From Spirochaetales bacterium (GTDB lineage: Bacteria > Spirochaetota > Spirochaetia > Sphaerochaetales > Sphaerochaetaceae): a DNA stretch of 53,880 bases. This document shows positions 1,928 through 26,143 of the stretch, piece by piece. The notes below the pieces were generated by a model. It worked only from the letters and a program-made list of their open reading frames with translations. It had not been told where the DNA came from and made no database searches. The position numbers and the translations under genes are program-made. Where the stretch lies: the NCBI GenBank assembly GCA_017614375.1, contig JAGABZ010000010.1:1-53880 (forward strand), written 5' to 3'. Position 1 is the stretch's first letter, and each line of letters opens with the position of its first letter.

Positions 1928-2833
1928 TTACAGGCGCTCGAACAGAGGCAGTGCCTTTTCGCGGAGGTCCGGATCGACCGGCTGCAGACGCTCGGTCTTG
2001 CGGAAGGACAAATCCTCCTCCCCTGTGATGTAGCGGGCAACGAGGGTGTACTCGTCTCCGACCTTTTCAAGGGAGAGGGCACGGGCACTGGCAATAACGC
2101 GCTCACGCTCGCACTTCTCGCGCTCCTTTCTCAGAGCGGCGCGCTTTGCGTTGAACTCGGCACGGACGGCCTCATCCGCGTCCTTCGGGGTCTTGGCCGC
2201 CTTGATTTCGGCGTTGAGGTCCTCGATCTTCTTTTCCATTTCCTTGAATGTGGTGATAGCCTCGTCAGCTCCCTTTCCGGCAATCTTGCACTGGCGGATG
2301 ACTTCGGCCTTTGTGAGCTTTCTCAGTCTCTTGTAGACTTCGACGGCGGCCTGAGCCTGTGCCTCGGTCTCCGCTGCCTTGCGGGCGGCCTCTTCCTCGG
2401 CAGCCTTCCTGGCGGCCTCTTCCTCGGCGGCCTTCTTGGCGGCTTCTTCCTCGGCGGCCTTCTTGGCGGCTTCTTCCTCGGCGGCCTTCTTGGCAGCAGT
2501 TTCCTCGGCGGCCTTTGCCTGGGCCTGGGCGTGGCGCTCCTCCCTCTCCCTGCGCTTGGCGGCCTTTTCTTCCTCGGCCTTCTGGCGGGCGAGCTTCTTG
2601 GCCTCTTCCATCTCAAGCCTGCGGGCCTCGCGGGCCTCGGCCTCGGCGGCTGCCTTCTTCTGGCGGGCGAGCTTCTTGGCGTCGATGCGCTCCTTGCTCG
2701 TGGCATGCGACTGCTCCCTCATTGCAATCTGCTTTTCGATTGCCAACGACTTGGCCTCCTCACGGGTCAGACCTTTGTTCTGCTGGGAGAATTTGCGCTC
2801 CTTCGAGCGGAGCTTCACATACTTGTTCGCCAT
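1928..2833 (-). CDS. Ala/Glu/Lys-rich coiled-coil protein with 9-residue repeats
   Basis: This 301-residue protein has no signal peptide or membrane segment. Residues 1-60 are basic and resemble a nucleic-acid or ribosome contact region (MANKYVKLRSKERKFSQQ). Residues 60-165 form a continuous charged helix that includes five near-perfect 9-residue repeats of the EAAKKAAEE type (112-156). Residues 165-301 form a separate domain with a further coiled coil around 205-250 and a predicted beta-rich end. The repeats superficially resemble TolA domain II, but TolA's N-terminal membrane anchor is absent. I assign no function. The start is supported by GGAGG 7 nt upstream. It is monocistronic, with its own terminator. 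Confidence 0.75.
   Translation of the reverse strand: MANKYVKLRSKERKFSQQNKGLTREEAKSLAIEKQIAMREQSHATSKERIDAKKLARQKKAAAEAEAREARRLEMEEAKKLARQKAEEEKAAKRREREERHAQAQAKAAEETAAKKAAEEEAAKKAAEEEAAKKAAEEEAARKAAEEEAARKAAETEAQAQAAVEVYKRLRKLTKAEVIRQCKIAGKGADEAITTFKEMEKKIEDLNAEIKAAKTPKDADEAVRAEFNAKRAALRKEREKCERERVIASARALSLEKVGDEYTLVARYITGEEDLSFRKTERLQPVDPDLREKALPLFERL
2366..2500 (-). repeat. 27-bp in-frame tandem repeats, five copies
   Basis: Within the coiled-coil gene, units encoding (E/T)AA(K/R)KAAE(E/T) repeat every 27 bp and are nearly identical at the DNA level. Copy number could change by slippage without a frameshift, altering the length of the helix. Confidence 0.85.
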
Positions 2834-2962: not shown

Positions 2963-4258
2963 TTACGGCCAGAGAGGAAAAACAACCGTCGCCCAGGCGG
3001 AGGAAATCAGCCAGATTGCCAGTCCGGGGAGAATGCCCTGTTTGAGCATCGAGCGCATATCATAGCCGCCCAGCCCCATGATCATCGGAGCGGTCGCGGT
3101 GGCCATCGGGGTCATGAACGCGCACAGGGCAGCCGCCTGCACCAGCAGACAGAGACCCAGCGGGCTGGCACCCAGAGCCTTGGCCGTCATTATCGAAACA
3201 GGGGTAAAAATGTTCAGCAGGGCCAGATTGTTCATGAACTGGGTCAGGACAAACGGAACCAGGAAGAACAGGGCGTAGAACACAAAGTCGTTTCCGATTG
3301 CCGTCCCGATGCCCGCCAAAGCGTTTCCGATCAGGTCTCCCGCGCCAGTGGCCGTCAGGGCTGCCCCGGTGGCCAGCGATCCCGCATAGAGGACGAGCAT
3401 CCCCGCCGGAATTGCCCGATAGGCCTCGGACTCATCCAGAACCCCGCAGACAACCATGAGAACAGCACCGCCCATGCACACAGCCCATTGGGGAAGGTTC
3501 ACCGCCTCCGAAACAAGCAGGCCCACGGAAACCAGAGCGAAAATCACGACAGCGGAAGCTTCTTTGAAAGGAGAAAGCGCCTCGGTCCTGTCCCGGGGCC
3601 CGGCTGAGATTTGCTGCAGGGGTATCAGCGGCTCGGACGGCGCGAGTTTCCCGGCGGCGAAGATACACCAGAAAAGGACGAAGACCATCGCCGGGAAACG
3701 GGCCAGGGCAACGTCCCAGACAGCAAATCTGTAGACTGTATAATCGAACATCTCCAGATAGCCGTTGAGGGTGGCGAAGTTCGTGGCGCTGGTGCCGATG
3801 GGCAGAACCCCGCAGGTTGCAATGGCCACCAGACCTATTGGGAACACCGCCTTTGAAGGGCTGACGCCCATCTTGGAGCACGAGGCCAGGACAACCGGGG
3901 AAACAATGACAAAAGCCGCTGAAGGGCTCTGGATGAACTGGCTGAGCAGGGCTGTCAGCAGGCAGTAACCCGCCATTGCCGCGGTCCATGAACCCGCGCT
4001 GAGCCTGGCGACCATATCCGCGACCGAGTCCAGAAAGTGTGTACGGCGGAAACCCGCGGCGACGATGAACATGCAGGCGATCATCACCGTGTTTGAGTTT
4101 GCGAAACCGCTGAGGGCAGTCTTTGCGTCGATGCAGCCGCAGAGGTAGTAGAGAACCATTCCCGCCACAGCCGTGATCGCCATTGGAATCTTTCTCCAGA
4201 TGAACAGGACAACGGTGGCGGTGAAGATAGCCAGACAGGCAACAAGGTGGAAGTCCAT
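2963..4258 (-). CDS. SLC13/DASS-family (sodium:anion symporter-like) permease
   Basis: A 431-residue integral membrane protein with about 11-12 hydrophobic segments. The two family repeats are visible. An N-terminal half carries LPIGTSATNFATLNGY in the position of the SNT/PxxTPPN motif. A C-terminal half carries MTPMATATAPMIMGLGGYD, as in the second SNT motif of divalent anion:Na+ symporters (compare MTPxGTPPNxxVFGPGGY). The substrate could be a di- or tricarboxylate or sulfate and cannot be assigned. The start at 4258 is chosen because GGAGGG precedes it and its ATG overlaps the stop of the upstream HAD gene as TGATG, implying translational coupling. A 16-residue upstream extension lies wholly inside the HAD gene and is rejected. 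Confidence 0.8.
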   Translation of the reverse strand: MDFHLVACLAIFTATVVLFIWRKIPMAITAVAGMVLYYLCGCIDAKTALSGFANSNTVMIACMFIVAAGFRRTHFLDSVADMVARLSAGSWTAAMAGYCLLTALLSQFIQSPSAAFVIVSPVVLASCSKMGVSPSKAVFPIGLVAIATCGVLPIGTSATNFATLNGYLEMFDYTVYRFAVWDVALARFPAMVFVLFWCIFAAGKLAPSEPLIPLQQISAGPRDRTEALSPFKEASAVVIFALVSVGLLVSEAVNLPQWAVCMGGAVLMVVCGVLDESEAYRAIPAGMLVLYAGSLATGAALTATGAGDLIGNALAGIGTAIGNDFVFYALFFLVPFVLTQFMNNLALLNIFTPVSIMTAKALGASPLGLCLLVQAAALCAFMTPMATATAPMIMGLGGYDMRSMLKQGILPGLAIWLISSAWATVVFPLWP

Positions 4259-23215: not shown

Positions 23216-24682
23216 ATGCTTATCAACCTTAACGTAAACGAGCAGGTGCGTCAGCACAACATCAAGCGCTGCAGGGAAAAGGGAATCATTCTCCCCACTT
23301 TCGCCCAGATGGCGCATCCGGACACGATTCCCGAAAGCATCAGGAAGAAGCTTACAGAGGTCGGGCTCTGGGACGTCAACCCGCTGAACCTGTTCAGGAT
23401 TACCTGGCACAACGAGCCCAAGGAAAAGGGCGGCCGTTTCGGGGGTGTCAACTACATCGAGATTCCCAGGCAGATCACAGGAACGAGAGCGCGGATCTTC
23501 GCCCTGGTCGGTAAATACTTCCCCACCGGAGCACACAAGGTCGGAGCCACCTACGGCTGCCTGGCCCCGGCACTGGCCACGGGAAACTTCGACGCCGAGC
23601 ACCAGCAGGCTGTCTGGCCCTCGACGGGCAACTACTGCCGCGGCGGCGCGTACAACAGCGCCCTTCTGGGATGTGACAGCATCGCCATCCTCCCGGCCGA
23701 GATGAGTCAGGAGAGGTTCAACTGGCTCAAGTCGGTCGCCGGTGAAGTCATCGCCACCCCGGGCTGTGAGTCGAACGTCAAGGAAATCTTCGACAAGTGC
23801 CACGAGCTCGACCGCGAGCGGGGCACCCACATCGTCATTTTCAACCAGTTCGAAAAGTTCGAGAACTACCTCTGGCACTACGCCATTACCGCCGAGGCCA
23901 TCCTAGAGGTCCTCAGATCCCGGGGAATCAAGCCGGAGAACGTCCGCGGCTACGCCTCGTCCACCGGAAGCGGCGGAACCCTGGCCGCCGGCGACAGGCT
24001 CAAGGAAGTCTACCCCGGCCTGAAGATAGCCGCAGGTGAGGCCCTCCAGTGCCCGACCCTGCTCAGAAACGGCTTCGGAGGCCACAGGATCGAGGGTATC
24101 GGAGACAAGCACGTGCCATGGATCCACAACGTGAAGAACACCGACATGATCTGCTCGATCGACGACGAGGACTGCCTGAGAATCTACAGACTGTTCAACG
24201 AGCCGGCGGGACTGGAGTACCTGAAAAAGGCCGGCGTCGCCCAGGCTGACATAGACAACCTCAAGCTGTTCGGTATCAGCGGAATCGGCAACATGCTTTC
24301 GGCAATCAAGATGGCCAAGTACTATGAGATGGAGGAGGATGACGTCGTCTTTACGATCCTCACCGACAGCAGCGTGATGTACACCTCCCGCCTGGCCGAG
24401 CAGACAGCGATGCACGGTGAGTTCACCCCGGCCGACGCCGCCATGGCCCACTCCGCCTGCCTGATGCACCAGGGAATCGACAACGCTCTGGAGCTGACCT
24501 ACTACGAGCGCCTGAGGGTCCACAACCTCAAGTACTACACCTGGGTCGAGCAGCAGGGAAAGACCTACGAGGAGCTCAACCGCCAGTGGTACGACCGCGA
24601 CTACTGGAAGGAAATCCCCGCCGACCTGGGCAGAATCGACACTCTTATCGAGGACTTCAACAAAGAGGTCGGGCTGGTCTGA
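23216..24682 (+). CDS. fold-type-II PLP-dependent enzyme (TrpB/cysteine-synthase-like)
   Basis: A 488-residue protein of the tryptophan-synthase-beta superfamily. The probable Schiff-base lysine is K108 in PTGAHKVGATYG. A phosphate-binding Gly-rich turn, STGSGGTLAAGDRL, is near residue 250. It is not TrpB itself (no TrpB substrate motif EHSGAG) and not a standard CysK. Its extended N-terminus and C-terminal region with DSSVMYTSR place it in a less studied branch found in anaerobes. AGAGGAG lies 6 nt before the ATG. Two bases separate it from a second fold-type-II enzyme, so the two probably act in one pathway or as a complex. The reaction is unknown; a lyase or synthase acting on an amino acid is likely. 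Confidence 0.75.
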   Translation: MLINLNVNEQVRQHNIKRCREKGIILPTFAQMAHPDTIPESIRKKLTEVGLWDVNPLNLFRITWHNEPKEKGGRFGGVNYIEIPRQITGTRARIFALVGKYFPTGAHKVGATYGCLAPALATGNFDAEHQQAVWPSTGNYCRGGAYNSALLGCDSIAILPAEMSQERFNWLKSVAGEVIATPGCESNVKEIFDKCHELDRERGTHIVIFNQFEKFENYLWHYAITAEAILEVLRSRGIKPENVRGYASSTGSGGTLAAGDRLKEVYPGLKIAAGEALQCPTLLRNGFGGHRIEGIGDKHVPWIHNVKNTDMICSIDDEDCLRIYRLFNEPAGLEYLKKAGVAQADIDNLKLFGISGIGNMLSAIKMAKYYEMEEDDVVFTILTDSSVMYTSRLAEQTAMHGEFTPADAAMAHSACLMHQGIDNALELTYYERLRVHNLKYYTWVEQQGKTYEELNRQWYDRDYWKEIPADLGRIDTLIEDFNKEVGLV

Positions 24683-24684
24683 GC

Positions 24685-25911
24685 ATGCGTTTCAAGTACG
24701 TCTGCAGCGACTGCGGCCATGAGTTCACGAGTCCGGACATAGTCTATCAGTGCCCGGTCTGCGCCGGCACGAATCCCCCGGGAACCTTCGCCCGGGGGAA
24801 CCTGTCCGTAATCTATGACCCGGATGATCTCAAATCTGCCGCTCAGCGCGAGGTCGTGGATTTCAGGGACTTCTTCCCCTATCCGGTCGTTCAGGCCGAG
24901 GCCTATCCCGTCGGCAACACCCCGCTGGTCCGGCCAGCGGCCCTGAGCAGGAAGTACGGGGCGCGGAACCTTTGGCTGAAGCTCGACAGTGCCCTGCCCT
25001 CCGGGTCGTTCAAGGACAGGGCCAGCCAGCTGGTCGCGGCCCAGGCTGTCTTTTTCGGTGAGAAGAGAATCGCCCTCGCCTCGACCGGTAACGCCGGAGC
25101 GGCGATGAGCTGCGCCGGAGCGGCCTACGGCCTGGACATCATCCTCTTCGTGCCTCAGTCCGCCCCTGTCAACAAGCTGATGCAGAGCGTCCTCTACGGT
25201 GCCACGGTCGTGCCGGTGAAGGGCACCTATGATGACGCCTTTGCCCTTTCAATCGAATACACCAGGCGTTTCGGCGGAATCAACCGCAACACTGCATACA
25301 ACCCGATGACGATCGAGGGCAAAAAAAGCGTCTCGATCGAGCTTTTCGCCCAGATGGGCAGAAAGGTCCCGGACATCGTCTACGTCCCTGTCGGCGACGG
25401 CTGCATCATCGCCGGTGTCTACAAGGGCTTCTACGACCTTTACAGCGCCGGGGTGATTGACCGCATCCCCGCCTTGGTCTGCTGCCAGTCATCCGGCAGT
25501 GACGCCATCAGCCGGGCCTTTGAATCGGGCAGTTTCGACGATATTCCCGCCGCGACGACCAGGGCCGACTCAATCAGCGTCGAAAGCCCTGCCAACGGAC
25601 GCATGGCGGTGCGCTGCATCAGAGAATCCGGCGGTCATACCTGCGTCGTCACCGACGAGGAGATCTTCGCCGCGCAGCTTGAACTGGCCTCCGAGGCCGG
25701 AGTCTTCGTCGAGCCGGCAGCCGCCTGCGCCTGGGCGGGCTTCGTCAAGGACAGAACTTGCACAAGTGTGACCCCACCAGGACCTGAACCTAGTGCGTGT
25801 GTTCTTCTGACCGGTACGGGCTTCAAAGACATGAAGGCATTCGACGGCAGAATCTCAATCCCCCCGGCCATCGACAACTCTGTCCAGGCCATGATCCGCC
25901 GGTTCAGCTAG
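24685..25911 (+). CDS. threonine-synthase-like PLP enzyme with zinc ribbon and a tRNA-derived insert
   Basis: A 408-residue protein. An N-terminal zinc ribbon, C7-x2-C10 and C23-x2-C26, precedes a ThrC-like fold with K110 in SGSFKDR, ALASTGNAGAAMS and LTGTGFKDMKAF. This layout occurs in threonine synthase and its cysteate-synthase-like relatives, so the product could be either or another beta/gamma-replacement product. Residues 357-371 are encoded by a 45-bp copy of the antisense of the nearby tRNA-Leu. They replace a surface loop just before the C-terminal LLTGTG strand, and the frame is kept. The start directly follows the upstream stop (TGAGCATG), with no strong ribosome binding site, so it is probably translated by coupling. 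Confidence 0.8.
   Translation: MRFKYVCSDCGHEFTSPDIVYQCPVCAGTNPPGTFARGNLSVIYDPDDLKSAAQREVVDFRDFFPYPVVQAEAYPVGNTPLVRPAALSRKYGARNLWLKLDSALPSGSFKDRASQLVAAQAVFFGEKRIALASTGNAGAAMSCAGAAYGLDIILFVPQSAPVNKLMQSVLYGATVVPVKGTYDDAFALSIEYTRRFGGINRNTAYNPMTIEGKKSVSIELFAQMGRKVPDIVYVPVGDGCIIAGVYKGFYDLYSAGVIDRIPALVCCQSSGSDAISRAFESGSFDDIPAATTRADSISVESPANGRMAVRCIRESGGHTCVVTDEEIFAAQLELASEAGVFVEPAAACAWAGFVKDRTCTSVTPPGPEPSACVLLTGTGFKDMKAFDGRISIPPAIDNSVQAMIRRFS
25754..25798. repeat. 45-bp tRNA-Leu(CAG) fragment embedded in the PLP-enzyme gene
   Basis: 42 of 45 bases match 26066-26110, the D-arm-to-T-arm part of tRNA-Leu(CAG), in the same relative orientation. Mismatches are at three positions only. The identity ends abruptly on both sides. 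Confidence 0.92.
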
Positions 25912-26010: not shown

Positions 26011-26044
26011 AAGAAAAAGCCCTTACCGAAGTAAAGGCTTTTGT
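26011..26044 (-). terminator. terminator of tRNA-Leu
   Basis: AAAAGCCTTTAC-TTCG-GTAAGGGCTTTT on the minus strand with a UUCG-type loop and a TTTTTCTTTTT tail. Confidence 0.85.
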
Positions 26045-26048
26045 CGCT

Positions 26049-26132
26049 TGCCCGGAACAAGACTCGAACTTGCACAGGTGTGACCCCACTAGGACCTGAA
26101 CCTAGCGCGTCTACCAATTCCGCCATCCGGGC
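26049..26132 (-). tRNA. tRNA-Leu(CAG)
   Basis: An 84-nt class II tRNA with acceptor GCCCGGA/TCCGGGC, anticodon stem CTAGG/CCTAG enclosing TTCAGGT (anticodon CAG), a long variable arm (TGGGGTCACACCTG region), T arm CAAGTTCGAGTCTTG and discriminator A. CCA is not encoded. Confidence 0.95.
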
Positions 26133-26143
26133 AGGTAAGAGCC

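Follow-up and report, generated by a model that had tools for sequence, protein, structure and literature searches.

A neighbouring tRNA-Leu(CAG) gene as the likely source of an in-frame segment in a threonine-synthase-like gene of an uncultured spirochaete

Template switching at microhomology during replication is a known class of mutation, and integrases duplicate attachment sites at tRNA genes. A further route by which short DNA segments move within a genome is short-patch double illegitimate recombination (SPDIR; Harms et al. 2016 PNAS, 10.1073/pnas.1615819114; name in PMC7192050, title in PMC6321871). In SPDIR, a short heterologous segment from the same genome is reported to take the place of a recipient sequence, with no long homology between the two, and to leave a cluster of polymorphisms; the process is described as involving a single-stranded DNA intermediate and as depending on exonucleases. 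A different kind of precedent is provided by the Rickettsia palindromic elements, families of 100-150 bp repeats inserted within open reading frames, through which noncoding-type DNA comes to encode an in-frame, solvent-exposed protein segment (PMC3767692). Literature searches brought up no direct precedent for tRNA fragments within bacterial open reading frames.

The locus described here belongs to an uncultured member of the Sphaerochaetaceae (Spirochaetales bacterium, assembly GCA_017614375.1) and lies in a stretch of 53,880 nucleotides of contig JAGABZ010000010.1, the whole of which is referred to as the window. It consists of a gene for a PLP-dependent enzyme, 45 bp of which match a neighbouring tRNA-Leu(CAG) gene. 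Like replication template switching, the case involves two breakpoints, a short copied tract, a nearby donor and a non-reciprocal change, but the copy lies in the same (direct) orientation as the tRNA at a distance of 312 bp, and the event itself is a reconstruction. It shares with SPDIR the replacement of a recipient stretch by a short intragenomic segment; SPDIR, however, comes from experiments in Acinetobacter baylyi, whereas the spirochaete case is deduced from one genome, has a tRNA gene as its donor and an in-frame protein segment as its product, and shows only putative microhomology at its junctions. Attachment-site duplication by integrases likewise leaves part of a tRNA gene duplicated close to a tRNA, yet the copy seen here is devoid of the tRNA 3' end, has no accompanying integrase and sits inside a gene. 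With the Rickettsia elements (PMC3767692) it has in common the conversion of noncoding-type DNA into protein sequence, but it is a single 45-bp replacement whose source is a functional tRNA gene.

The recipient is an intact gene of 408 codons on the plus strand (24685-25911) that encodes a threonine-synthase-like, fold-type-II enzyme (PF00291, E = 1.2e-67). The protein carries an N-terminal Cys4 motif and the SGSFKDR lysine motif, and its closest likeness in the PDB, by sequence as well as by fold, is to threonine synthases. It scores below the cut-offs of both NCBIfam threonine synthase models, TIGR00260 (152.6 against 167.1) and PRK08197 (204 against 303). The gene family is conserved across Sphaerochaetaceae and related Spirochaetales, and no relative of the enzyme is encoded on the viral contigs. 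The gene is the second of two adjacent fold-type-II PLP enzyme genes (23219-25911), a pair kept in 76 of 80 fetched loci; both members score below the NCBIfam cut-offs.

The tRNA-derived segment occupies positions 25754-25798 of the plus strand, near the 3' end of the gene, starting at the second base of codon 357 and ending with the first base of codon 372. It is identical at 42 of 45 bases to 26066-26110, read as the antisense of tRNA-Leu(CAG), so that the match with three mismatches reported in the first-pass annotation was recovered. The exact runs within the tract measure 11, 12, 15 and 4 bp, in that order, 15 bp being the longest run common to both copies, and all three differences are transitions. 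The gene copy was found with E = 2.8e-13 in a whole-genome search, and a pattern search of the 1.54-Mb genome that allowed three mismatches returned two sites only, the gene copy and the tRNA. By comparison, the best match to the tRNA reached 27-29 of 45 bases in five dinucleotide-shuffled windows and 28 of 45 in the window with the copy masked. Outside the tract, the flanks of the copy and of the tRNA are unrelated in the window comparison except for the four bases CAAG.

The reading frame remains open throughout 24685-25911, and when the copied segment is read in its three forward frames, only the frame used by the gene is free of stops. Both the preservation of the frame and the conversion of tRNA-gene sequence into protein-coding sequence, already pointed out from the DNA letters, are thereby upheld, and about 14 amino acids of the enzyme are now encoded by RNA-gene sequence. 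The last difference between the copies falls in AGTGCGT, the 3'-terminal seven bases of the copy. These bases may be native gene sequence that was never copied, since relatives (e.g., L071) encode S-A-C-V-L-L at the site. The certain copied core is therefore about 25756-25791, and the third difference may be native junction sequence, in which case the copy has changed at just two bases since it was made.

The donor stretch, located by pattern search and alignment, lies on the minus strand within an intact tRNA-Leu(CAG) gene (26048-26133; ARAGORN; Rfam RF00005, 53.2 bits), which is the sole CAG-leucine tRNA among the 44 tRNAs inventoried in the genome. The copied portion extends from the anticodon arm across the variable arm as far as the beginning of the T loop. 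Among the tRNA-Leu genes of 139 family genomes, the best match to the copy is the organism's own tRNA (42 of 45), followed by tRNAs from the same-genus genome G001 and from genus g3, with one base fewer (41 of 45). The copy and its own tRNA agree in having a T that follows the anticodon stem and a CAC within the variable arm, both of which are missing from the G001 tRNA; an A before the anticodon stem is shared by the copy and the G001 tRNA but not by its own tRNA. On these comparisons, the adjacent tRNA-Leu(CAG) is most likely the donor. In a plasmid similarity search, the matches returned start within the tRNA.

Between the copy and the tRNA lie just the end of the gene and a short intergenic stretch. 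The latter contains a terminator-like hairpin (AAAAGCCTTTAC TTCG GTAAGGGCTTTT, 26015-26042, no strand assigned) between the convergent gene and tRNA, recognised by consensus match only, in a search that found one such hairpin where shuffled sequence gives 0.8 on average. An ancestral position of the tRNA beside the gene was rejected on two grounds. Among the tRNA-Leu(CAG) loci examined, only that of the window has the gene nearby, and in 7 of 42 relatives (L063, at 3213-3298, L064, L085, L087, L090, L096 and L105) the gene is instead followed within 2 kb by a tRNA-Leu(TAA). It is possible that leucine tRNAs have been exchanged in this neighbourhood, the window having tRNA-Leu(CAG) where some relatives have tRNA-Leu(TAA).

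What the segment displaced is apparent from an alignment of the window protein with 46 relatives (47 sequences), none of which is closer to it than about 75% protein identity. A native stretch is present at the site in all 46 relatives, D356 and C372 usually being separated by 14 residues and the typical pattern being DxxxLxxxFGxDV.VC; the window protein has instead DRTCTSVTPPGPEPSAC, with 15 residues and a net gain of one codon. Alignment column 362 is a gap in every relative, and the 15-residue segment, whose uniqueness the first-pass annotation had proposed to check in close homologues, occurs in none of them. The alignment shows that the copy took the place of native codons and was not an addition to them. 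The same-genus genome G002 is fully native at the site (DRDHLAAKLGHDASVC). In G001, the native sequence begins (DSEHLA) and then the contig ends, and the rest of the gene was not found in the G001 assembly. This contig (C140; L005 1-19) ends inside the exact stretch overwritten in the window, which may be chance or the mark of a variable site.

When the copy and its gene flanks were used as a DNA query against the 139 family genomes, a match spanning the junctions was obtained in the window's genome only; in the others, the 45 bp and the gene flanks match separate places. Since no other genome matches across the junctions, the replacement most likely arose in this lineage. The loop initially described as captured is accordingly unique to this genome among the 139, but it is not extra sequence, the native stretch having been replaced.

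The explanation proposed, with good confidence, is a single ectopic short-patch event in which copied sequence from the adjacent tRNA-Leu(CAG) took the place of this stretch of the gene. The gene strand would have switched to the similarly oriented tRNA, roughly 0.3 kb distant, or been annealed by it, some 36-45 nt of tRNA would have been copied, and the strand would then have returned to the gene, with native codons (14 in most relatives) replaced by 15. The route could have been a template switch or an SPDIR-like double illegitimate recombination, and the patch would have been tolerated because the site is permissive. In keeping with a short patch, the donor is short and comes from elsewhere in the genome, the recipient sequence is replaced, and the junctions are without long homology. 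At the 3' junction, the relatives' genes offer AGYGCGT as candidate native sequence. The 6-mers GACTCG and CTTGCA occur in G001, and a 6-mer in common with G001 at the 5' junction arises in 28% of shuffles; at sequence level, junction microhomology is suggestive only.

The lack of homology in the flanks favours illegitimate over homologous exchange. Homologous (RecA-type) non-allelic gene conversion between gene and tRNA would fit the proximity of the donor, the direct orientation and the non-reciprocal tract, but the flanks offer no initiating homology, with only CAAG in common, and the relatives' genes are unlike the tRNA at the site, all of which makes it unlikely. Of the initial proposal of local duplication or gene conversion, the adjacent tRNA is retained as the likeliest donor, while classical conversion is improbable with flank homology of only four bases.

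Another origin to be considered is a mobile-element remnant, in which the copy would be an att duplication left by an integrase targeting tRNA-Leu. Integrase use of tRNA genes does occur in the same genome, at tRNA-Pro(CGG), but the copy in the enzyme gene stops at the start of the T loop and so has no tRNA 3' end, it lies inside a conserved gene with native codons replaced, and no recombinase gene was found among the open reading frames of the window between the copy and tRNA-Leu(CAG). This origin is considered highly unlikely. At the tRNA-Pro(CGG) locus (L197; G000:C5:50200-53900), the 3' part of the tRNA recurs 3.2 kb away as a 48-bp copy (98%), and between the two sits a tyrosine recombinase gene that adjoins the tRNA. 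It is a small integrative element with att-like repeats and contrasts with the tRNA-Leu copy.

An assembly or population chimera must also be weighed, as most of the relatives' records are metagenome-assembled genomes, the window's genome is in 17 contigs, and the G001 contig terminates exactly in the overwritten stretch. Short-read assemblers use k-mers longer than 15 bp. A short-read misjoin is unlikely because the exact runs common to the two copies do not exceed that length; moreover, a copy made by the assembler would be exact, whereas these copies differ at three bases, and a join at random would preserve the frame just by chance, whereas here the frame is open and the segment length is near native. 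A chimera is regarded as highly unlikely. The earlier argument that three differences speak against an artefact thus holds in its outcome, although one of the three may be native.

The least credible of these origins is a dispersed protein-coding repeat, similar to the Rickettsia palindromic elements, that resembles a tRNA by chance. Noncoding-type DNA in frame within an open reading frame, at a probably exposed site, is indeed what those elements present (PMC3767692), but the genome has no further copies at three mismatches, and the search with 44 tRNAs yields otherwise only partial copies of tRNA-Pro and tRNA-Ala elsewhere. These are four in number, one of tRNA-Pro and three degenerate ones of tRNA-Ala, and none was shown in that genome search to resemble the gene-embedded tRNA-Leu piece.

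The three degenerate tRNA-Ala copies adjoin an ATPase-like gene. Positions 1-363 of the window, at the left end of the contig, repeat the tail of contig C8, with the end of an ATPase-like gene and three 33-bp tandem repeats (169-267), followed by a degenerate tRNA-Ala(GGC) copy of 82% (298-363). On contig C8, an intact tRNA-Ala is followed after approximately 124 bp by a partial copy, and a further degenerate copy lies close to the end of the contig. The tRNA-Ala region looks like an element or a set of alternative structures. Elsewhere in the window (2342-2590), 27-bp periodic repeats (GCGGCCTCTTCCTCGGC...) probably encode an Ala/Glu-rich repeat on the minus strand.

The consequences for the enzyme appear to have been slight. 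Of all 14-residue windows of the protein, the one at residues 357-370 has the lowest conservation in the alignment, and several relatives have natural deletions there. Invariant positions flank the segment of tRNA origin on either side, 121 alignment columns being the same in all 47 sequences, the window's included. The AlphaFold model of the window protein has a mean pLDDT of 92.6 overall and of 66 for the block 361-370, and its helix 344-356 corresponds to a confidently predicted helix 344-364 in the G002 orthologue. According to the models, a proline-rich, low-confidence loop probably took the place of two helical turns and a turn, while the remaining fold was kept. The site had at first been read as a surface loop; the predicted models of the G002 orthologue and the window protein indicate instead that the ancestral element was probably a helix end. 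As the segment preserves the frame, contains no stops and lies where the protein is least conserved, it most likely left the fold of the enzyme intact and had little or no effect on fitness. From the intact frame and the conserved remainder, we infer that enzyme activity was retained.

The mRNA of the enzyme gene matches the complement of tRNA-Leu(CAG) at 42 of 45 nt, and the duplex, taken in isolation, should be highly stable, with a computed energy of -86.6 kcal/mol; this complementarity follows from the copying alone. That the captured stretch is used in regulation, either through pairing of the mRNA with the sole tRNA-Leu(CAG) or through the new proline-rich loop, is extremely doubtful.

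Most likely, this mutation belongs to a class already known and constitutes a single, apparently unique case rather than a new system. It is of moderate interest as a well-resolved conversion of tRNA to protein sequence in one uncultured spirochaete, and similar events could be searched for as tRNA pieces in open reading frames at variable sites. The locus provides a natural snapshot in which a structured-RNA gene supplies protein sequence in one step, with donor, recipient, frame and replaced segment all identifiable. Conserved enzymes, to judge from this case, may have secondary-structure elements exchanged through short ectopic patches.
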